Source: Tupaia tana (lineage: Eukaryota; Chordata; Mammalia; Scandentia; Tupaiidae). From it: DNA of 64,000 bases. Shown one piece after another: positions 11,105 through 44,167 of this stretch (positions are counted from its first letter, which is position 1; the number at the start of each line of letters is the position of its first letter). The notes below the pieces were generated by a model, which ran no database searches, was not told where the DNA came from, and worked only from the letters and a program-made list of their open reading frames with translations. The position numbers and the translations under genes were made by a program. The stretch spans positions 29,264,452 through 29,328,451 of the forward strand of contig JAKSZU010000018.1 of assembly GCA_026018925.1 (NCBI GenBank), in the 5' to 3' direction.

Positions 11105-11231
11105 AGAAAGAGACACACAAAAAGAGAGAGAGTCAGAAAGCAAGCTGCCTGGCTGCCTGGTCTGGGGTTCGAACTGTGGTCGGCCATGTGAGAGTGTCCG
11201 AGCCTTAACCACCACGCCACCTGCTGGTCCC
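11040..11231 (-). mobile_element. tRNA-derived SINE, short form, long T run
   Basis: Antisense; a 35-base T run at 11067-11101 marks the tail, and the head ends CACCACGCCACCTGCTGGTCC. Confidence 0.85.
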
Positions 11232-31092: not shown

Positions 31093-32447
31093 AAAATATT
31101 TTTTAAATGTAGGGAAGGGCAGAGATGCTCCTGGGAGAAAAGGGATCCAGCCCCAGTTCCCTGAGACAGTCATAAAATCTGACTGATGGCTTGGGGCAGA
31201 GCCCTGGGAGTCAAGCCTGCCCGCCATTCTGCTATATGACAGGAGCAAGCCTCAGGAGCCGCGGCGGACAGCTGCACTGGGAAGGGACGAATGGCCATGG
31301 AAGCAGGGGTGGCATTTCCTCCTGCAGTCTCCTCAGCAGGCGCAGTCCTGGAGGTAGTAGCCCCTCCAGCCAGCCGGCCCATCAAGTCCCCACAACTGTG
31401 ACTGCCGCGTTTCCAGGCGTAGGGTTAGCACCAAAGGCCTGTGCGCGTAGATCATCAGCGCCCCCTGGTGTTCATCCTGGGAAAAGCACTGGCTCTGTGA
31501 GCGCGGTCTGACGCTAGGTCTAGGGCTAGGGTGCCCGCGACTGTGGCCAGAACTTGGGATTTCGAATCCGCACCCTCATCCTACCAGAGGAAATGCAATC
31601 CTGTCCAGTCTTTAAATAGCCAGCCACTGGCGTCCTGCTGGCTCAGCTGGGAGGCGTCCTGATCTTTGCTGGTGATGGAGGAGGAAGAGCAGGAGGAGGG
31701 AAGGCAGCGGTGATGGGGCATCAGATTTGCAGCCTCTGGGCAGGACTGGACTTCCCATCTTTGGGAAGGGTGGGCTTAGGGTCTGGGTCATCATATGTGG
31801 AGGGGTTAAAGGAAAAGAGGGCCCAGGCAAAGGCTGGTGAATCCTGACACCAAGTGGGTCTCTAAGCACTGGTGGGGACCCCAGGCTGAGATGTCACCTG
31901 GCCCTCTTCAGGAGAAAGGTATCAGGGACCAGCAGGTGCTTCCAGGGCAGGCTGCTCAAGACCCCACCCCCAGCAGGTCAGCGGCATTCATAAGAAATCC
32001 CACCCTACTCTGACATGTCTCCTCCCTGGTCTGATTCCGTTTTCATGGGTTAGGCAAGACCAGTGCCACTTGTCCCTATGTCACAGATGTGGAAACTGAG
32101 GTCCATGAGAAATGACAGGGTCAAAGTCGTACAGTGAGACTCAGAGCCAGGCCTCCTGGCTCCCTGGCCCGTGCTCCGTCCACAGGCCTGGCCAGCCCAG
32201 GCAGCAGGACAAAGCTCACGGCAGCCAGGTGGGGTGGGACACATCCTGGAGCAGAGCACCAGGGGAGACAGCGCAGTGGCCCGCCCTCTGTGCTTGGGAA
32301 GGCCACAGAGGTGGAAAGCTTCCCAGGGGCATGATGGCCTCTGGCGTCAGCAGCAGCAGGCCTGCTACCTTCTCTAGTAGGAGTCAGAGCTCAGGTTGCA
32401 GGCAGACGGAGAGGTGAGGCAGAGGGTTCCAGGTCTGGAGGCTCAAG
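31093..32447. other. ADGRG5: Region downstream of the ADGRG5 stop (3' UTR and flank)
   Basis: The 3' UTR of ADGRG5 must begin at 32447 and run leftwards. I found no convincing AATAAA (TTTATT on the plus strand) within this stretch, so the transcript end is not called. A MIR piece lies at 32070-32160. Confidence 0.5.
32075..32165 (-). mobile_element. MIR SINE fragment
   Basis: ACAGATGTGGAAACTGAGGT and CAGAGCCAGGCCTCCTGGCT, reverse MIR. Confidence 0.7.
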
Positions 32448-32554
32448 CTACCGTGTCGTCTGGGAGGAGCTGAAGGCCTCCATCTCTGCCTCGGCTTTGG
32501 CCTCGGCCTCTGCGCGGCACCTCTGGGAGCAGAACCACAGGAAGAGGAAGAAAC
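32448..32554 (-). CDS. ADGRG5: ADGRG5 last coding exon (end of TM7, cytoplasmic tail, stop)
   Basis: The acceptor is CTGCCTGCAG. It encodes FFLFLWFCSQRCRAEAEAK, then a short acidic/alanine tail ending SSSQTTR and TAG at 32450-32448. Human ends SSSQTTQ. If the exon 10 insertion is real, this exon is read in another frame that stops at TGA 32445-32443. Confidence 0.94.
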
Positions 32555-35500
32555 CTGCAGGCAGAAAGCTGGTTGGCGGGAGCGCCGTGGAGCAGCACGG
32601 GCTTCACGCCAGCACTAGGCAGCTCAACAGCTGCAGTGAGTTGGGCCTCCCTGGGCCCCAGGGAACTCCCAGAATCCCTCACTGTTGGAAGCCAGCACCC
32701 TTTCCCCTGGGTGGAGCATGGGAGCTACTGGAAACCCTCGGGCTGTGGGCTTCGTCCAGCTGCACACGACCCTGGAGCTCCCACCAGGGCGGCCCCAGGC
32801 CTTACCATAGAGCGAGTTGAAGATGGTGAAGAGGAAGAGCTGGGGCAGAAAGAAGACGCCGAAGGAGAAGAAGGCCAGGGCCCAGGTGGTGCCCAGCAGC
32901 ACAGTGAGACCCAGCACGGTGACAGTGTCCTGGCAGGCCCGGGCACCTGGCGCCTTCCCCCTGCACCCGCAGCCTGCGCAGGGCCTGCAGAGCCCAGGTC
33001 AGCACCACCAGGTTGAAGAGACACGTGAGGCCACCATAGCCCATGACTAAGACCGCGTGTGCTATGGAGCTGCGCAGCCAGCACCTGCCACGGAAGAGAC
33101 CAGGGTCAGTGTGGCTGCAAGGCCTCCCTCCTGAACCCGACCAGGGCCTCCCAGCTCAGGCTCATTCTGTCTTGTCCAACCACAAATAGCAAAGCCCCCC
33201 ACCCAGCTTTCTAGCTAGTCAGCACCACAGGACCCACCCGCCACCTCGGTCCCCTTTCTGAACCACCCCCCCCATGTCTGCCTTTCCAGCTGCAGCAAAC
33301 TCCGTACCTCAGTGCCTCTCTCCCAACTGAAAACTCTCCCCTCCACCTGCTCCCCTTTGACTCCTCCTCCTCTCACGGCCAGCCCTATGCATAGCCAACT
33401 CATGCGATGTTCTTTTTGAGAGATTTTTGCTATAGGGTGTGCATGCTCACCAGAAACACAGAGACAAAGAAACAGAGATAGAAAGCAAGAAATCACCTCC
33501 CTGGGGGAATGGCCATGCCACAATCCCTTCTCCTCCTGGGATTTTGGACACACACACACACACCCAGTGTTTGGAGCTACCGGGTCCAGGATTCGAACTA
33601 TGGTCAGCCACACGGGAGTCCAGTGCCTTAAGAACTATGGTCAGCCACCTGCTGGCCCTGTGCAATATTGTTATGAATCACTGGCCCAGGGTCCTCCTTC
33701 CTGGAAACTTCCCCTCTCACCTCACCACGTGGTTGTCTCTATCTCTGCAATAGGACACCTCATGCCAGGACCCCTTTCCCTCCTAGATTGGGCCAACATG
33801 CTCTCTCCTAAACAACTGCGTGTGGCTTGGTGGAGGGGTGCGTTCCACGTGAGGCCTGGGGGCAACAGGAATACCCCACCAGGTGCTGTGCCTGTCCTGG
33901 TCCTTGGCCCTGCAGGCCTTCAGCTCCCCAGAAACACCTTCCAGAGAGCTGCTGCCTTCTACCCAGTCAGACCCCGGGTCACAGGCATTACCCTGATAAC
34001 CCCATCAAGTCCTCACGACCCCATGAGGCAGGGACATAACCACCACCCCCGACCCCTGCCGCAGGTGAGAAAACTGAGGTGCTGGCTCAGGAACACACAC
34101 TAGTCAGAAGCAAAGTCATGCCCTGTCACAGTCACCTGCACTACAGTCACCAGTGTCCTCAGACATTATTTTGGGATTCTCCAAACCACCAAGTGCAGCT
34201 GCGGCTCATTTACTCTCCCTGCTACCGCACACCCATGGGGCTCTGCCGCCATGTCTCAGTCCAGGGCCTGTCAGCGGACACCTGAATGACTTCTGAGGGT
34301 GGGTTTGCTTTTTAGGATTGTTCGTGCTTAGGACTATATGTATATCTCGTAAGCAATTTTTAAAGTGCAAGAATAAAAGTCACAGGACCAGCAGATGGCA
34401 TAATGGTTATGTCGCTGGACTACCACATGGCCGACCATGGTTCAAGTCCTAGACCCAGAGGCTTGAAACTCACACCGGGTACGTGTGTGTGCATGCCCCA
34501 AATCCTGAGAGAGTGGAGAAGGGGTTGTGGCATAGCCATCCTGGGAAGTGATTTCTCTCTTTCTGTCTCTCTGTCTTTCTCTGTCTCTCCAAGAAGTGCA
34601 TACATCCTATAGCAAAAAAAAAATCTCTATTAAAAAAGAAAAGAATAAAAGTCACAAAATCCAGGGTAATCGTCTCCTGAGGGGAGAGGGAGAGCAAGGA
34701 GGACTTGGGGAGACACTCTCCTTGGGTGGGAACCCTTGAATGTCCACGCGTGAATGTGCTTCCTGTCCCAGGGGTGTGTCACTTCAGCCCTTCTGTCCAC
34801 ATCACATATCGTATGACAGCCTCCATCTCTGCAGGGACCAGAACCACATCCCCACTAAGACACCAGCTGGACCCTCGCAGCAAGAGGGTTTATCTCATCT
34901 CCCTCTTGGTGCCTGAGTGATGTGGGGTGCAGTGGTAAGGGGGTGGGCTCTAGAGCCAGCAGCCTGTAAGCAAGTCCCAGCTCCACCCTGACTGGCTGGC
35001 TGTCCTTGGGCGGGGTTCTCGAGCTGCCTGTGCCTCAGCTGCCCTCGCTGTAAAATGGGCTGACAACAGACCCTACCCGCGCTGTGAGGATTAGGGGTGC
35101 TAACACACAGGCCTGCAGGGGGTCTGTCCTCAATATAGCTTATGTCGGTCAAGGCAGGGAAAAGAAGACTTGGTGGCTGGGACCAGCAGATGGCGTAATG
35201 GTTACATTGTTGGACTTCCCTGTAGTTGACCACATGCATGCCCCAAATCCTGAGAGGAGAAAGGAGAAGGGATTGTAGTGTGACCATCCTTCCAGGGAGG
35301 GTGATTTCTCACTTTCTGTCTCTCTCTGTCTCTCCAGCAAGTATACACACCCTATAACAAATATCTCTCTCAATAAATAGATACATACATAAATAAATAA
35401 ATGAAACAAGAAGACTTGGTGACCAAGCTGGTGCTGGACTGCAGGAGTTTCTTAGGTCAGTCTACATTGGGCTGTTAGAGACATGTCACATAAGGGCTGA

Positions 35501-38500
35501 CCTTATAGCCTAGTGGTTAGGAAGCTGGATCTCACATGGCTGACCGCTGTTCAACTCCTGGCCTCAGTAGCTTGGAAAGCATGCTGGTATGTGTGCATTT
35601 AGGCCCTAAATCCTGACAGGATAGAGAAATGAAGGAGAAGCGATTGTGGCATGACCACACCCCATGGGGGGTGCTTTCTTCCTCTACCCCCTCTGTCTCT
35701 GTCTGTCTCTGGTAAGCATTTAATTGCCCTCTGGTAATTAAAAAGAAATGTGTCATGGTGTCGTGGTCATCAAGAATGCCGTGTCCTAGAACACAGGAGA
35801 CATAGCAGAGGTTGGAAGTGACAGTAGCAGTCTGTCCCCAGGTCCCGCGAGCCCCCCACTGTTACCTCTCCATGCATCCCTGCATATGCCAAGCCCATCC
35901 TGCAGTACTTCACTGCCCCCAGCCCCAGCCCAGGCCCTAACTCTCTCCTCTGAGGGAGAGAGGTGTCACATGCCTGGCAGGGTTCGGAAGAGCCAGGCCC
36001 TGAGCAGACAAGGCACGGCAGTGTAGAGAGGACAGGCCAGGTGCAGGCTGAGCTTGGCCCAGCACGGCCTGGAGGTTGGACACTATGTGGCCATGAGCTG
36101 GCACGGGGCACAGGCCTGGCTACATGAAGGTGCTGGTGTCTGGTCCATGGCTTTCAAGTGTTAGCACAGAACTCAAGACCAACCGGGCAGGACACCTCCC
36201 GGATCCAGCAGAGGGAGGCAGCAAAGCCCTGTGGAAACCTGGCCCTGTCAGAGCCACAGCTCTCCCTCTGACCCACGGGTAGCGCCTTGCCCGTCAGACA
36301 CCCCATGGGACCCACGGCCAGCGCCTTGCCCGTCGGACACCCCATGAGACGCACAGCCAGCGCCTTGCCTGTCAGATGCCTTATGGGACCCACGGCCAGC
36401 GCCTTGCCTGTCAGATGCCCCATGGGACCCACGGCCAGCGCCTTGCCTGTCGGACGCCCTATAGGATACCCTGTTCAGAGCCCCAAGGCCCACGTGGCCC
36501 TCAGCCAGAGCCAGGGAGCCGCCACGGCTCAGAGGGTACTCACATGGAAGTGTTCTGGAAGCCTGTGCCATTTTCCTGGGTGCCAGGGAGGGGGATCAAG
36601 TAGGGTCCGTACACTGAGCTCTTGGCAGCAAGGAGGGGCAGCACCACGAGGGCCGGGACCCCTGAGGTGGGAACAGAAGCTCAGGAGGGCTGTCCCTGGG
36701 TGCCCGGGCTGCTAAACCAGAACTCCACTGGGCCAGGGTGGGGCGGGCGCTGTTCTGAGGCTCCGGCTGTGTGATGGAGTGGTAGTGGCAGGAGTGGGGG
36801 TCCACAGGGGAGATGGCTGTGGAAGCCATGATAACAGGGAGAGTCAGGGAACACGTGAGGAAATAGAGATGTGAAGAATGTGGCTGAGAGGGGGATGGAG
36901 TGCCAGTGACAGTGGCGACAGACAGCGGTGACGATGAGGATAAAGACATGGTGGTGATGAAGGCGATGGTGGTATCGGAAGTAGAGGCAGAAACAATGGA
37001 GGTGGAGGTGGAGACGTGGTAGCAGTGGTGGTCAAGCTGGAAGAGGAGGTGGTGGTTCTGCCAGAGGAAAGATAGTGGAGGTAGTGGTGACAGTGAGGGT
37101 GGTGAGGAAGTGAGGGTGGTGGAGGTGGCAGGGGCAGTGTTAGAGGTGAGGGTAGCAGAGGTGGTGGTGCTGGTGGCGAGGATAGCATTGGAGGAGAGGG
37201 GAGTGGAGGTGGCAGTGTTGGAGGTGAGGGTGGTGAGGAAAGTGATGGTGGCGATGATAGTATTGGAGGTGAGGGGAGTGGAGGTGGTGGTGGTGGTGAT
37301 AATGCTGGAGGTGAGGGTAATAAAAGTGGCGGGGGTGGCGACGGTGTTTGAGGTGAGGGTAGTGGAGGTGGCAATGATAGTGTTGGAGGTGAGGGTAGTG
37401 GAAGTGATGATAGTGGTACTGGAGGCAAAGGTAGTGGATACAGTGGTGGTGATAGTGGTGTTGGAGGTGAGGGTAGTGGTGGTGGCAAGGGTGGTGATGG
37501 AGGTGAGGGTAGCAGTGGTGGTGGTGCTGTTAGAGGTGAGGGTAGTGGCGGTGGCAATGGTGGTGGTAGAGGTGAGGGTGGTGGTGGTGGTGGTGCTGTT
37601 GGAGGTGAAGGTAGTGATGGTGGTGTTGGAGGTAAGGGTAGTGGTATGGTGAAAATGGTGGTGTTGGAAGTGAGGGCAGTGCTGGAGGTAAGGACAGCAG
37701 TGGTGGTGGTATTGGAGGTGAGGGCAGTGGATGTGGTAGTGGTGGTGGTCACAGTGGCATTTGAGGTGAGAGCAGTGGTGGTGATGGTGGTGTTGAAGGT
37801 GAAAGCAGTGGATGTGGTGGTGGCAATGGTAGCGTTGGAGGTGAGGGTGGTGATTATAGTGCTGGAAGTGAGGGTAGTGGAGGTGGTGGTGGCAATGGTG
37901 GTATTGGGGGTGAAGGTAGTGGGTAGTGGTGGTGGCGATGGTAGTGTTGGAGATGAGGGTAGTGATGGCATTGTAGGTGAGTGTAGGGGAGGCACAGTGG
38001 CACTGGTAGTGGTGTTGGAAGTGAGGATAGTGGTAGAGGTGAGGGCAGTGGATGTGGTGGCGGTGATGGTGGTGTTGGAGGTGAGTGTAGTGGTGGAACG
38101 GTAACAATGGTGGTGTTGGAAGTGAGGATGGTGGTGTAGGAAGTGAGGATAGTGGTGGTGAGGGCAGTGGATGTGGTGGTGATGGTGATGTTAGAGGCGA
38201 GCGTAGTGGTGATGCTGGTGGAGCTATTGGAGGTGAAGGCAGTGGATGTGGAGGTGGTGGTGACGGTTGTGTTGGAGGTGAGGGCAGTGATGTGGTGGTG
38301 GTGGTAGTGGTGACAGTGACATTGGAGGGGAAGGCAGTGGTGGTGGTGGTGATGGTGGGGTTGGAGGTGGAATAGTGCTGAGAGTGGTAACACAGAAAGT
38401 AGTGGGGGTTGTTAAAGATGGCGGCTGTGGTCACATACGGTCTCTACGATGAGGAAGAGGATAGGAGGGGTCAACGGCTGGCTGGCTGGAGGCCTCAGGA

Positions 38501-41500
38501 GGGGCAGGGGACAGATGCTGCACTTACCCCAGCCCACCGCACAGAGCTTGAGCATGTATCTGCGGATGTAGATGTTGTAGACGCGCCCGAGGAGAAGGTA
38601 GAGGTGGAAGCCTTCAATGGCCATCCAGGTGAGACAGCTGAGCAGCATGTAGTGCAGGACGGCGGCCAGCACCGTGCATGCAGCCTGGGGCACGGGGGGC
38701 GTGGCCAGCTCGGGACTCAACAGGAAGGCGACGTTCAGGCCCAGCACGGAGGTGTGCAGGTTCATGTGGATGCGTGTTACAGAGTCACTCTGCTTCCTGC
38801 GGGTGGGAGCATGGCCCTCCAAGGCCCGGGGACTCATGCAGTGCACCCTCTGGGCTCGCAGAGACACCTCCACAATGGACAAACTGCGGCCAGGACGCAC
38901 AGCAGCCACTGGCACCCTGCCTCCCGCCCCACCTCTGAAGAGGCCCACCCCACTCGGGGACCATGAGGATCAGAAGGCTGTGCTGAGAGGGGTGGGGTGG
39001 GCAGGCTGGTCACGGCTGGGAAGTACCTGGTCTGGAAGTGCAGCAGGACGGTGAGCAGCGAGGCCACGATGGAGATGCTGCAGCCCACCAGAGAGATGTA
39101 CGTGAGAGGCGCCAGCAACTCTGCAGGGACCGGGGCCTGGGACAATTGCTGCGGGAGGGAGGGGGCGTTGCAGGCCAGAAGGGTGGAAACGCCCTCCCAG
39201 GGCTCATTCGGAGAGACCTTCCGAGACCCCAGCTTCCAGTCCCCTTCCCATGAGTGTGGCCCCAATCCTGGCTTGCCTGAGGCCAGGGAAGGCATGGCGA
39301 TCCCTTCTGGCTCCCACAGTGCCCACCTCTCCTTCCTCTTTGAGACCCTTCCGTTCCTCACTCCCAGCACACCAGTGGGCCCACCACTTCTCCGTCTGTG
39401 TGCAGACAGGTGCACCAGCCCCGACCTGCCAGAGCCCTCCCTCCTCCTAACCACAGTGGCCGGATCAGGGATGAGCACGTGACACACGTCACACAGATAG
39501 GACTCAATCCCACGACTGGCTGGCAGAACTGAGTAGGAGAAACTTCCATTCCTCTGGCCTAAACGTGAGATTATTATTATTACCCTACAGAAAGATTCTG
39601 TCTGAGGACTAAGCCAGCACAGAACAAGCACAGCTGAGAGACAGAGAATCCTGTCTGAGTGATATCGAGCTCCTGGATCAAACCATGCCTAGAACTTAAC
39701 CCCAGCCTTTTCAGAAATGCAAGCTCGTAAGTTTCTTTTTATTCCCCCTTTTTTAAAATTTGAATCAGACTGTCTGTCCCTTGCACAACTTTTGCCTTGC
39801 TCTGACACAGACATGGGCCCTCTGCGGCCCTGGCCCCCTCACCCAGGCTGGGTGCATGCATACCATGAGAACAGCAAAGTAGGTGAGGTGGTTACAGTGG
39901 CAGAGCACCTGGGAACGTGAGGGCTGCTCTGTGCGACAACCCTCGGGGCTCCAGGCCCCCCAGTAATGCTCGCTGGCTCTCTCGTTCCAGAAAACACAGG
40001 TCACTGTGTAGTCTTCCTGAGGGGAGATACTGGCATCAAAAGGGTGCAGAGCCATGGCCGCAGATCAGGATCTGGGAGTCATGGGGGCTAACGGTGACTC
40101 AGCACACTGGTCAGTACTCTCCAAGACACTAGCTGGGCTTTGACTTCAGACAGTCCCCGATTCCAGCCCCACCCACAGCACGGACTCGCAGAGTAATCCG
40201 AGCAAGTTGCCAAGTTTTTCAGAGCCTCAGTTTTTTGATGGACAAAATGGGATCGTCTGGGGTCGGTAGGTGGCGCAGCGGGTGAGGTGCTAGACTCCCA
40301 CGTGGCTGATTGAGATTCGATTCCAGACCTGGTGGCTCGCTGTCTCACTTTCCCTTTCTCTCTCTCTCTGGTCAAATTAAAAATAATAACAACAACAAAT
40401 ATTTTTTTTTTAAATTGGGATCATCTACACCCAAGCCACTTCGATGGTGGAAAATGAAAGGCAATGTGAGGTCAGCCCTACGGCCCTGTGGTTAAGGCAG
40501 CAAGATCCCACATGACCGGCTACGGTTCAACTCCTGGGCCCCAGTGGCTTGAAAGACATACCAGGCATGCATGCCCTAAACCCAACAGGATGGAGAAGTG
40601 GAGAAGGGACTGCAGCGTGACCATGCCCCATTGCGGGCTGCTTTCTTCCTCTCCACCTCTCTGTCTCTCTCTGATGAGTGCACAAGCCCTCTGGCAATTA
40701 AAAAAAAAAAAAAAAAAACAATGTGGAATCCTGAGTGCCCAGGTCTGGCCTTTTCACAGCAGGTAGTCACGGCCCAGCAGTTCCCCTGCAGGTCCTCCCT
40801 GTGGGGACAGCCATGGCGCAGACCCAAGGCTAGTAGAGGGTGGTGAAAGGGCACAAGCAGTGCCATAGCAAAGCACAACGAAGGGGCAGGGGTGTCCCCA
40901 GGAGGGCAAGGGGGTGGGGCAGTCACAGAAATGGAGCCAAGGGCAATCTGCTGTTTTTGTTTTTTTTTTTTTTAGCTTTTTGCCATAGGGCATGTTCATT
41001 CATCAGAGAAAGACAGAGGGAGGGAAAGTGAGAAATCACTCCCCACGTGGGATGGCCACACTGCAATCCCTTCTTCTCCACTCTCCTCTCAGGATTTGGG
41101 GCACGCAAGCACATACACCCAGTGTGATTTTCAAGCCATCAGGTCTGAGACTCAAACCGTGGTCGGCCATGTGGGAGACCAGCACCTTACCCACCACGCC
41201 ACCTGCTGGCCCTAGAGCAAGGGCATTCTCTTGCAGGGGAAGGGGTTGCCATGGGCACCATGAAGAGATGGGACACAATTAAGAATGCACAGTCATCCCA
41301 GCGAGCTTCCGCAGGGGGGAAGGATGGGAAGGGAAGGGGGTGCCCCCAACGGTACCAGGCTCCGGTTGTGCCAGAAACTGATGTTGACCGTCTCCCTGAG
41401 GTTGCTCACGTGTCCGTGGTCCAGCTGGGCCCCCAGGACATAGTTATTGAGCAGGGATGAGTTGTCGTCATCCTGGAAGGGCAGCAGAGGAAGGGCTGAG

Positions 41501-44167
41501 GGAAGGGACGCGGGAATACCCTGATGGAAGTCCGAGCCCTCCCTCCTCAGCCCGGCCTTCCTGCCTTTCACAGGCGGCAGGGCCGCCCCCACCTTTGCGT
41601 ATTTAGTACATTCCAGTCTCAGACCCCGCCCCCCCACCGGCCCACCCTACCCCCACTCCTCCTCTCCTCCATCCTAACTCACTTTCAAAGCCAGGGTGGA
41701 AAGGCACCTCCTCCAGAAGGCCTCCTGCACTGCACACTGGGGACACAGTGACCCCATCCCAACTTAGCTGTCACTTTTTTTCTCTACAGTCAGTCAACGA
41801 GGTATTAACCCCCCATCTCAGAGGTCCTGATCTACGTGTGGAGACACAGCGTTCTCCGAGGGCAGGGCCTTGTGCCTTTGGCCTGTCTCCTGCCCAGGCA
41901 CCTACTCGGTGTCTCAGGGCTCCTGAGCAGGTTGCGACTGCACCACTCAGTTACAGCTGGCCAGAGACGGGCAATGCCTGGCTCAGAGTGCACAGCGGGC
42001 TGGGCCCACCTGGTCCTGGTCCCCATCCAGAGGCCATGTGGTGGCATGGGTACCTGCAGCGCTCCTAGGGAGGAGTTAGTGCCTACCCTCCTCGGCCCAC
42101 CGCGCTGACCTGGAAGAAGAAGGTGCTGGAGAAGTAAATGCAGATGAGCCGCAGATCCCCGTGGCCGGTCGCGCAGGCGGCCTGAGTCATCTCCGCTGGG
42201 AGCTCCATGGCGTGCCGGTGCTGGGCCTGCAAGGGGCCTGGGCAGCTGAGTCTGGTGTCCAAGGCCGGCAGACCCAGCTCCTGCTCCTTCACCATCCCCA
42301 CTCCCCAGCCCACCCCTGGGCATCCTCTTCCTCAGAGCTTCCATGTGCAAGAAGGGGAGCCCTCTGGGAAGGAAGCCCAGGATGTGCTTCCTCCCAATCT
42401 TCCCGAGATCCTAGGCCTTCCCTCCATGCTGTGCCAGGCTTGGATCTGGGTCATCTGCCCCACTCACAGGGCCCTGGCATGGAGCCAGCGCAGCACCCAG
42501 CGCGTCACCACCAGTCATCTGGCAGGCGTAACAGCGGGGTCCTACAGGAAGCAGGACCACCTGGCCTCTCCCACTGCAGCCGTCCGGGGGAATGCCCTCC
42601 ACCCTGCTCTCCACCCAACTCCAGGCAAAAGCAGGAAGACACTGCCATGGAGGGGCCACAGAGCACCCCCCCTGCCCTAGTCCCACAGCGGTGCCACCCC
42701 ATCTTACAGGCAACTCCGGCTCTTTGGGTCAGAGCCTGTACTGGGCAGGGGTGGGGGTGGAGATGGATGGCAGAGCCTGGGGAAACCATACCTTAAACTT
42801 CTGAGAGACTTTTGGGGCAGAAGCATTTGGCCACCCCATGCCCTGGCCACCTCTGACTTTGGGGTTCTGCTCCAGGGTGTCGCTGCTCAGTGAGAGACCT
42901 GTGAAGTTGCAGTCCAGCTTGAAGACCAGAGACTGGATGATGTCCGTCAGCAAGGTCAGCCTGGGGCCCTGGAACTCAGCCTTCAGCAGTTTCTGCTCCA
43001 AGGTATGGACTTGCCTGAGGCCAGAGAAGGCAGAGCTCAGAGTGGGGGTGAGGGTGAGAGGGGCCTCTAGGCGGTCTGAAGGGCAGGGCCTCCCCATTCC
43101 ACACTTCTGTTACTCCCTCCTTCAGACTTTTGCACGGACACCATTCCTGGGATGCTTTTACCTCTCCACCCCACCCATCCCTTCTCCTGAGTAACTCTTG
43201 TTCAGGTCCCAATTTGTTATCGCCTCCTCCAGGAAGCCTTCCCTGACTGCTCCTAAGTGAAATGTCCCAGTCAGAACTCTTAGCCTTGGCCAATCATCAG
43301 CATCTCACTCAGAGCCCAATTACGATCTTAGAGTCTCCTTCCTAGGAAAATGAAGAGGCCTACAATTCTGCACCTGGTTTCACGGACCCACAATTAGAGA
43401 CCCCCCCATCCTAGACAATAAACTCCATGAAGGTAAGAACATCTCTGGGACCTAGTGCTAGGCACACAGTAGGTACTTAATAAAAGCACAATGAATAAAT
43501 GAATGGCTAGGAGCCTACGCTGGAACAACCCCGGGCCACAGTTGACTGAGCCATGAACGGACAAACCACTCACTTCCTGGGAAAAGCCAGTGTTCGGCTC
43601 CTGGGTTTCTCTATGTTCTCGATCCAGCGCTGGAGTTCTTCCAGTGTCTCTGTGGGGAGCGAGAGTCCCCAGCTTGAGTTCTCGGCTGACCCTACTCCAG
43701 CCCACGGCCCTAGGCCTTCCATCCTGAGACCTCTAGCTCACCATGCTGCCACCCCCAGGAAGTCCAAGTGGACCTTTCTCTCTCTCCTTTTTCTTTCTTT
43801 TCTTTTTTTGTTTTTATTTTCCCAGAGGGTGTGTGTGCTCACTAGAGAGAAACAGTGAGCCCGCAGACCTCCTTTCGGGATTTTGGGCATGCACACACAA
43901 GCACTTGACAAGTTTCACAAATCACCCCATCCAGGATTCAAACCATAGGGTCAGCCATGTGGTATCCGGCTGCCTTACCCACAAGGCCACAGAGCCAGCC
44001 CACAGGCAGACCTTTTCAATCTCCCTTGGTTAGAGGCCTCCACTCGCACGGCGCAGTCTGGGGCCTGGGCTAGGTCTGCCCCTGCTCAGCTGAGCTGTCT
44101 TACCTGCTGTCCCGCTCTGAACGGTCAGAAGGCACAGGCAGAGGAGAAGGGCCCCAGAGCAATCCAT
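32448..44167 (-). CDS. ADGRG5: ADGRG5 (GPR114) adhesion G-protein-coupled receptor, 11 coding exons, frameshift in exon 10
   Basis: Seen: coding exons (in transcript order) 44167-44104, 43649-43574, 43014-42858, 42226-42110, 41472-41356, 40016-39864, 39148-39027, 38796-38528, 36661-36544, 33084-32806 and 32554-32448, all with GT donors and AG acceptors. Phases join through exon 9. The total is 1,579 nt, one more than a multiple of three; dropping one base in exon 10 gives 525 residues, close to human ADGRG5 (about 528). Layout: signal peptide ~1-20; N-glycosylation sequons including N83, N142, N168 and N174; GPS with HLT at 220-222; seven membrane spans from ~244 to ~505; C309 (TM3) and the C399-W400 pair (second extracellular loop). 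Known of the family: GPS autoproteolysis exposes a tethered agonist, and the receptor signals through Gs in leukocytes. Neighbour order matches human. As written, the last ~87 residues are out of frame, so the call is a good gene with one suspect base. Confidence 0.95.
32806..33084 (-). CDS. ADGRG5: ADGRG5 coding exon 10 (TM5, TM6, most of TM7), +1 frameshift
   Basis: 279 nt; the phases of exons 9 and 11 demand 278. The frame opens with CWLRSSIAHAVLVMGYGG and TM5, ending at LRRLRVQ. Homology then jumps to another frame: APGARACQDTVTVLGLTVLL (TM6) and FLPQLFLFTIFNSLYG (TM7). The shift lies in GTGCAGGGGGAAGG, five C on the plus strand at 32957-32961. Four would give VQGKAP, aligned without gap to the human third-loop segment. 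Both splice sites are good (GTGGCAG acceptor, GTAAGG donor). Confidence 0.93.
33411..33659 (-). mobile_element. tRNA-derived SINE in ADGRG5 intron 9
   Basis: GAGAGATTTTTGCTATAGGG to CAGCCACCTGCTGGCCC. A short internal repeat of ACTATGGTCAGCCAC (near 33596 and 33631) lengthens the head. Confidence 0.87.
34386..34643 (+). mobile_element. tRNA-derived SINE in ADGRG5 intron 9
   Basis: GGACCAGCAGATGGCATAATGG head; AAGAATAAAAGTCACA lies on both sides, the target duplication. Confidence 0.92.
34930..35095 (+). mobile_element. MIR SINE
   Basis: GCTCTAGAGCCAGCAGCCTG, GCTGTAAAATGGGCTGACAA and GCGCTGTGAGGATTAGG in forward MIR order. Confidence 0.85.
35179..35390 (+). mobile_element. tRNA-derived SINE with internal deletion
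   Basis: GGGACCAGCAGATGGCGTAATGG; the B-box and centre are deleted. AAGAAGACTTGGTGG/AC flanks both sides. Confidence 0.88.
35493..35747 (+). mobile_element. tRNA-derived SINE, oldest subfamily
   Basis: AGGGCTGACCTTATAGCCTAGTGG to GCCCTCTGGTAATTAAAAAG. Confidence 0.8.
36271..36465. repeat. 39-bp x 5 minisatellite in ADGRG5 intron 9
   Basis: Five consecutive units start at 36271, 36310, 36349, 36388 and 36427, exactly 39 bp apart, with core CCACGGCCAGCGCCTTGCC. Divergence between units is small. It lies 79 bp from the exon 9 donor. Since 39 is 13 codons, the array keeps repeated-peptide ORFs open in other frames; these are by-products. Confidence 0.95.
36544..36661 (-). CDS. ADGRG5: ADGRG5 coding exon 9 (TM4 end, second extracellular loop)
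   Basis: 118 nt, translating as GVPALVVLPLLAAKSSVYGP and on to ENGTGFQNTS. The acceptor is CCCACCTCAG and the donor AT|GTGAGT. It is a little less conserved than exon 8: human GPC reads GPY here, but the disulfide-forming loop cysteine is C399 in exon 10. Confidence 0.92.
36895..38375. repeat. G-rich minisatellite in ADGRG5 intron 8
   Basis: About 1.5 kb of degenerate tandem repeats on the plus strand built from GGAGGTGAGGGTAGTGGTGG, with spacing between successive GGAGGTGAGGG motifs of about 33-37 bases and often a multiple of three. The plus strand is almost free of C, so the ADGRG5 pre-mRNA is C-rich here (ACC/CCTCACCTCC). The near-triplet structure leaves long frames open on both strands (for example 38434-36596, minus), which translate into Thr/Ser/Pro or Val low-complexity sequence and are not genes. 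It lies about 150 bp downstream of exon 8 in the transcript. Confidence 0.9.
38528..38796 (-). CDS. ADGRG5: ADGRG5 coding exon 8 (TM2, TM3, start of TM4)
   Basis: 269 nt. It encodes RIHMNLHTSVLGLNVAFLL (TM2), the TM3 cysteine C309, LSCLTWMAIEGFHLYLLL (TM3) and GRVYNIYIRRYMLKL leading into TM4. The acceptor is CGCAG|GAAGCA and the donor GTAAGT. It is the best conserved exon of the gene, with no disruption. Confidence 0.96.
39027..39148 (-). CDS. ADGRG5: ADGRG5 coding exon 7 (end of tethered agonist, TM1)
   Basis: 122 nt. QLSQAPVPAELLAPLTY leads into TM1 (about residues 244-266), which is almost identical to human. The acceptor is CTCCCGCAG|CAATTG. A second AG, 12 nt inside (TGTCCCAG), would give an in-frame form lacking QLSQ. 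The donor is AG|GTACTT, leaving phase 2. Confidence 0.94.
39864..40016 (-). CDS. ADGRG5: ADGRG5 coding exon 6 (GPS cleavage motif)
   Basis: 51 codons, from EDYTVTCVFW to CHCNHLTYFAVLM. The paired GPS cysteines (C-H-C), the upstream Cys and Trp, and the cleavage triad H220-L221/T222 are intact, so autoproteolysis is predicted. The tethered agonist starts at T222 and continues into exon 7. Confidence 0.95.
40150..40250 (+). mobile_element. MIR SINE fragment
   Basis: Reads in forward MIR order: CGAGCAAGTTGCCAAGTTTT, then GAGCCTCAGTTTTTTGATGG and ACAAAATGGGATC. Confidence 0.6.
40257..40412 (+). mobile_element. tRNA-derived SINE, short form, ADGRG5 intron 5
   Basis: GGGGTCGGTAGGTGGCGCAGCGG to TGGTCAAATTAAAAATAAT; TGGGATCGTCT and TGGGATCATCT flank it. 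It lies upstream of exon 6, in the region between exons 5 and 6. Confidence 0.8.
40469..40719 (+). mobile_element. tRNA-derived SINE, oldest subfamily
   Basis: GAGGTCAGCCCTACGGCCCTGTGG to GCCCTCTGGCAATT with a clean A18 tail. Confidence 0.82.
40965..41213 (-). mobile_element. tRNA-derived SINE, older long form
   Basis: AGCTTTTTGCCATAGGGCAT to CACGCCACCTGCTGGCCCT. Confidence 0.87.
41356..41472 (-). CDS. ADGRG5: ADGRG5 coding exon 5 (GAIN domain)
   Basis: Exactly 39 codons, DDDNSSLLNNYVLGAQLDHG and onward to NISFWHNRSL. It carries three sequons, NSS (142), NIS (168) and NRS (174), and is strongly conserved with human. The donor is CTG|GTACCG. Confidence 0.94.
42110..42226 (-). CDS. ADGRG5: ADGRG5 coding exon 4
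   Basis: Exactly 39 codons, from AQHRHAMELPAEMTQ to RLICIYFSSTFFFQ. The acceptor is CCCCTTGCAG and the donor GTCAGC. The segment LRLICIYFS is nearly identical to human and belongs to the GAIN-domain beta sandwich. Confidence 0.92.
42858..43014 (-). CDS. ADGRG5: ADGRG5 coding exon 3
   Basis: This exon has 157 nt and runs from HTLEQKLLKAEF to LSSDTLEQNPK, with sequon NFT at N83. The acceptor is GGCCTCAG. The donor is AAA|GTCAGA, weaker than the others but the only choice that keeps phase 0 into exon 4 and matches the human boundary. It is part of the extracellular domain before the GPS. Confidence 0.88.
43574..43649 (-). CDS. ADGRG5: ADGRG5 coding exon 2
   Basis: This exon has 76 nt. The acceptor is CTCCCCACAG and the donor GTGAGT. 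The phase-1 G of exon 1 completes a Glu codon, followed by TLEELQRWIENIEKPRSR. The start ETLEELQ aligns with ETWEELL in human. It encodes the start of the extracellular N-terminal region and ends in phase 2. Confidence 0.88.
43800..44000 (-). mobile_element. tRNA-derived SINE, oldest subfamily, ADGRG5 intron 1
   Basis: TTTTCCCAGAGGGTGTGTGT to ACAAGGCCACAGAGCCAGCCC; the central body is shortened. Confidence 0.75.

Follow-up and report, generated by a model that had tools for sequence, protein, structure and literature searches.

A one-base frame break in exon 10 of Tupaia tana ADGRG5: possible consensus error or young loss of function

Losses of adhesion receptor genes are on record for mammals: PMC8584163 names ADGRD2, ADGRE4, ADGRF2, and ADGRF4, reports a frameshifting deletion in human ADGRE4, and describes the presence of ADGRG1, ADGRG3, and ADGRG5 as unstable in amphibians and reptiles. 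Receptors truncated to five helices are known as well. GHS-R1b, a GnRH receptor form, and D3nf are of this kind and often dominant negative, and five-helix variants are mostly found inside the cell and do not signal (PMC3477067). One-base steps in homopolymers are, according to PMC8812927, the commonest residual error in bacterial assemblies built from long reads only. The ADGRG5 gene of Tupaia tana invites comparison with each of these. Like the mammalian adhesion GPCR pseudogenes (ADGRE4 in Hominidae; ADGRD2 in mouse, rat, and others), it is a receptor thrown out of frame by a small indel, but it carries one lesion and no sign of further decay. Its predicted product would keep TM1–TM5 and add a foreign tail, as do GHS-R1b, the 5TM GnRH receptor, and CCR5-delta32; those receptors are splice products or proven alleles (PMC3477067), whereas ours is predicted from genomic sequence. 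As in homopolymer indel errors, a run of G in a conserved gene is one base off its expected length, although such breaks are rare in this assembly.

The window, by which we mean the whole 64-kb stretch that was analyzed, lies on a 70.9-Mb contig of a 2.95-Gb genome. ADGRG5 (GPR114) occupies its minus strand from 44167 to 32443 in 11 coding exons, and all of the introns are GT-AG. Exons 1 (44104..44167, start codon onward, signal peptide) and 2 (43574..43649, phase fitting) were placed by weak similarity and splice phase only. Exon 3 spans 42792..43014 (223 nt, donor AAG/gtatgg) or, in an alternative 157-nt form, ends at 42858 on the weak donor AAA/gtcaga. Exon 4 (42110..42226) was placed by tblastn and splice sites, exon 5 (41356..41472) ends on the weak-scoring donor CTG/gtaccg, and exon 6 (39864..40016) holds the GPS motif (Pfam, E 3.7e-16). 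The membrane region begins with the stalk and TM1 in exon 7 (39027..39148) and continues through exon 8 (38528..38796; TM2–TM4), exon 9 (36544..36661; TM4 and ECL2), and exon 10 (32806..33084; TM5, ICL3, TM6, and the start of TM7). Exon 11 (32451..32554) encodes the rest of TM7 and the C-terminal tail up to a TAG in the other, ancestral frame; the frame as written closes at a TGA (32443..32445). Several repeats were also seen in the window: a tract of ∼1 kb in intron 8 (37094–38185), strongly GC-skewed and made of degenerate repeats that are rich in GGT and GGA on the plus strand, a 39-bp minisatellite of about five copies in intron 9 (36270–36466), and copies of a tRNA-like SINE (CAGCAGGTGGC...) at 11197, 12445, 13083, 27010, and 41179.

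The gene is the orthologue of human ADGRG5. Searched against PDB, the part before the break matched the human receptor (7eq1) with an E-value of 3.4e-102 (next best 4.9e-52) and the part behind it with 4.1e-43 (next best 3.5e-12). Downstream on this contig, and on the strand of ADGRG5, come ADGRG1 and then ADGRG3, in the tandem order ADGRG5/ADGRG1/ADGRG3 of the human genes. The GPS motif is common to the human and the treeshrew gene, and the tethered-agonist stretch TYFAVLM is retained. Within the transmembrane region, 168 of 216 residues are identical to human before the break and 73 of 82 behind it. The difference is an extra base in exon 10, which leaves TM6, TM7, and the tail out of frame.

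The first-pass annotation had reported that exon 10 is 279 nt long where the phases of its neighbors call for 278, and both the phases and the lengths of the paralogous exons bear this out. The exon is bounded by tggcag/GTGCTG and TCTATG/gtaagg and is entered in phase 2; with 279 nt, exon 11 is entered in phase 2 also, yet it yields the conserved GFFLFLWFCSQRCR of the human protein only when entered in phase 1, as would follow from an exon 10 of 278 nt. Exons with the same borders measure 278 nt in ADGRG3 and 269 nt in ADGRG1, both 2 modulo 3. The homology itself changes frame where that annotation had placed the jump, continuing in one frame through LRRLRVQ and resuming in the next from APGARACQDT, with the junction at GGGGG on the minus strand (32961–32957, in the third intracellular loop). 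In tblastn, with a human ADGRG5 protein as the query, exon 10 was covered by residues 404–447 at 33083–32952 and by residues 444–496 at 32962–32804 in another frame. The 7eq1 sequence confirmed the break independently; the upstream frame matches it as far as LRRLR, and what follows the break, once read in the other frame, agrees with it through to the C terminus.

We attach practically no weight to the idea that exon 10 is intact and that its borders or the phases of its neighbors were misjudged. Its borders coincide with those of the ADGRG1 and ADGRG3 exons, and the frame jump sits within the exon and not at a border, which already refutes that idea; because the homology splits inside exon 10, the frame breaks there. 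Ten tblastn matches span ADGRG5 exons 3–11, and among these exons only exon 10 is divided between two frames. No such within-exon split was found among 12 matches to ADGRG1 (residues 22–693) or 11 to ADGRG3 (residues 17–549), and the stop contained in one ADGRG1 match lies where the match runs on into an intron.

When the TM6–TM7 part is read in the other frame, it still shares 73 of 82 residues with human, so the break is either young or technical, and the same identity indicates that this segment was under selection until very recently. We found no further stop, frame break, or non-GT-AG intron in ADGRG5. A gene of this size is expected to acquire a second inactivating change every 1–4 million years, which bounds the age of a fixed loss at roughly 3–11 million years (95%); these figures assume neutral rates of 1.2–4e-9 per site per year with indels at 10%–15% of substitutions, both rough. 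An old pseudogene was rejected, given the single lesion, the GT-AG introns, and the conservation on both sides of the break, and the earlier judgment that this is an error or a young polymorphism is upheld. Genome searches, one with DNA spanning the site and one with exon 8, returned only the locus itself among the best candidates, with no second copy, retrocopy, or alternative haplotype; the exon 8 search also matched the paralogue ADGRG3 (162 nt, 72%).

The same annotation had found no stop, gap, or bad splice site elsewhere in the gene. This stands for stops, frame breaks, and GT-AG dinucleotides, but two donors are weak: scored with a donor matrix, AAA/gtcaga of exon 3 reaches −0.5 bits and CTG/gtaccg of exon 5 −2.0, compared with 1.2 to 7.0 for the other eight. 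The weak exon 3 donor matches a donor of ADGRG1 (CAG/gtcagg) in place and phase, and it may be this ADGRG1-like site that has been weakened. The donor 66 nt further on (AAG/gtatgg, 4.3 bits; 42858–42792) is in frame, scores higher, and adds 22 residues to the extracellular region.

To gauge the assembly we used protocadherin-type exons, which must stay open for ∼2.4 kb. A genome search with Cadherin_2 (PF08266), in which all 73 of 73 candidates were scored, gave 60 rows, 54 of them unbroken frames of 777–1075 codons (136,320 nt in total) and two of them the two parts of a single exon that lacks one base. A decayed exon (199 codons; locus L047) and three shorter frames (241, 498, and 322 codons) were left out of the break rate, and 21 of the 30 protocadherin loci retrieved contain N letters, so that frames there are not visible letter by letter. 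The broken exon, a clustered protocadherin exon (locus L046, 1208–3714; G000 C253, about 28271700–28274200), is 28 nt long at a place where the five retrieved loci with the same motif measure 29, and this break is either an allele or an assembly error. One break translates into a chance of ∼1.2% of a break in a coding sequence of 1650 nt, with a 95% upper bound of 5.6%. None of the 72 G or C runs of five or six bases in 30 protocadherin frames (47,059 readable nt) closes the frame, from which a miscalled run is expected in at most about 4%; ADGRG5 itself has five further such runs, two of five bases and three of six, that leave the frame undisturbed. Other families were poorer yardsticks than the protocadherins. 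Class A receptors (PF00001) gave 145 of 147 rows without a stop, a figure that covers the best 147 of 4046 candidates and is likely biased to intact genes. Stops in 3 of 30 rows for PF02214 and 3 of 25 for PF00250, which may belong to pseudogenes, were left out of the rate. This is a good assembly in which errors are rare yet possible. Elsewhere in it, at least 17 rows of class A receptor genes without introns lie within ∼260 kb (G000 C420:74612135-74869614); judging from the layout, these are possibly trace amine-associated receptors.

Against this background, we put about even credence in ADGRG5 being intact in the animal, with the fifth G a residual one-base error of the consensus, and a technical origin of this kind is, by a small margin, the likeliest single cause. 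Such an error would have arisen in a run of G within a GC-rich exon. The one-base step does fall at a homopolymer, the rest of the gene showed no stop, frame break, or intron other than GT-AG, and the protocadherin break rate is low but not zero. The quality of the assembly argues the other way, since a gene of this size would be broken with a chance of ∼1.2% (upper bound 5.6%), the lone protocadherin break may itself be a real allele, and the G and C runs of the protocadherins and of ADGRG5 otherwise keep their frames open. Applied to ∼20,000 genes, however, we estimate that a rate of this order would give a large number of false breaks, similar to the number of true frameshift alleles that a single haplotype carries, and the odds are therefore divided between an error and a real change. 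Every mammal carries some frameshift alleles, and a genuine loss-of-function allele, captured in the haplotype that was assembled, is a possibility we take seriously while holding it less probable than an error. It could segregate in the species or be confined to the sequenced individual, and it would have come about by slippage from four to five G. The rest of the gene is in frame and conserved, breaks of this kind are rare in the assembly, and finding no other copy of the site is what would be expected if one haplotype had been kept. An allele of this kind should nonetheless stay rare, given that the observed/expected ratio of loss-of-function variants in human ADGRG5 lies below the adhesion receptor average (PMC8584163).

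A recently fixed loss, in which ADGRG5 would be a unitary pseudogene too young for further decay, seems unlikely to us. The break is present, no intact copy was found among the best candidates in the genome, and the weak donors of exons 3 and 5 could be early decay. The missing second lesion confines such a loss to the short age given above, the exon 3 donor need not be a lesion at all when a higher-scoring in-frame donor exists, and the available sections of PMC8584163 name no mammalian ADGRG5 pseudogene. We give very little credit to a useful five-helix ADGRG5 (dominant negative or for adhesion only) or to a cryptic splice that would restore TM6–TM7. Truncated five-helix receptors are known to act as dominant negatives, but Pfam gave no match for the shifted tail, and the lost frame is conserved, which speaks against a truncation of long standing. 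As to splicing, 18 GT-AG pairs of at least 20 nt within exon 10 restore the frame, of which 17 cut into TM5 or TM6. The one pair around the break that spares both would remove 37 nt, with a donor (CGG/GTGCAG) that scores −2.2 bits; to our knowledge this is shorter than any vertebrate intron, and we rejected the pair as too short to be credible. Skipping exon 10 was rejected too, as dropping 279 nt leaves exon 11 in the same wrong phase. A consensus error narrowly remains the reading we prefer.

If the break is real, it would be a young loss of function whose product retains TM1–TM5 followed by a foreign tail of about 88 residues. The translation as written ends at the TGA and loses TM6–TM7, just as the first-pass annotation had it. 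The length of about 527 residues given there is right for the 157-nt exon 3 and becomes 549 residues with the later, higher-scoring donor. The match of the product to Pfam 7tm_2 stops at profile position 184 of 250; the segment behind the break, read in its own frame, covers positions 201–249 with 16.5 bits, below the family cut-off of 20.6. The shifted tail has no match in Pfam, and in a PDB search with the shifted frame of exon 10 it gave only a match at E 0.9. A hydropathy scan (threshold 1.6) picked out TM1, TM3, TM4, and TM5 and missed TM2, and the tail holds one moderately hydrophobic stretch (best 19-residue mean 1.55), so that the five-helix description rests on homology more than on hydropathy. 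"A five-helix, non-signaling receptor" is then a fair prediction for the product as written, with the qualification that the tail stretch might contact the membrane. With its stop in the final coding exon, the transcript should not be subject to nonsense-mediated decay, provided that no noncoding exon comes after it. By analogy with other truncated receptors, the protein would be held in the cell and would probably be inactive, without signaling.

Events of this kind, in which a single base breaks the frame of one gene in one assembly, are common. Loss of ADGRG5 in a mammal is not reported in the available sections of PMC8584163, PMC13197933, PMC6667449, PMC11039983, PMC3477067, and PMC9569928, and among the literature matches listed none reports such a loss, which is a narrow statement. 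Should the fifth G be an error, automatic annotation would here record a truncated receptor or a gene loss that does not exist. It is rather doubtful, in our view, that Tupaia tana has lost ADGRG5 very recently, or has a five-helix form that keeps the tethered agonist without G protein coupling, with ADGRG1 and ADGRG3 in frame beside it. If the break were real and fixed, it would make this species, which retains the two tandem paralogues, a natural knockout of a receptor whose role is little understood.
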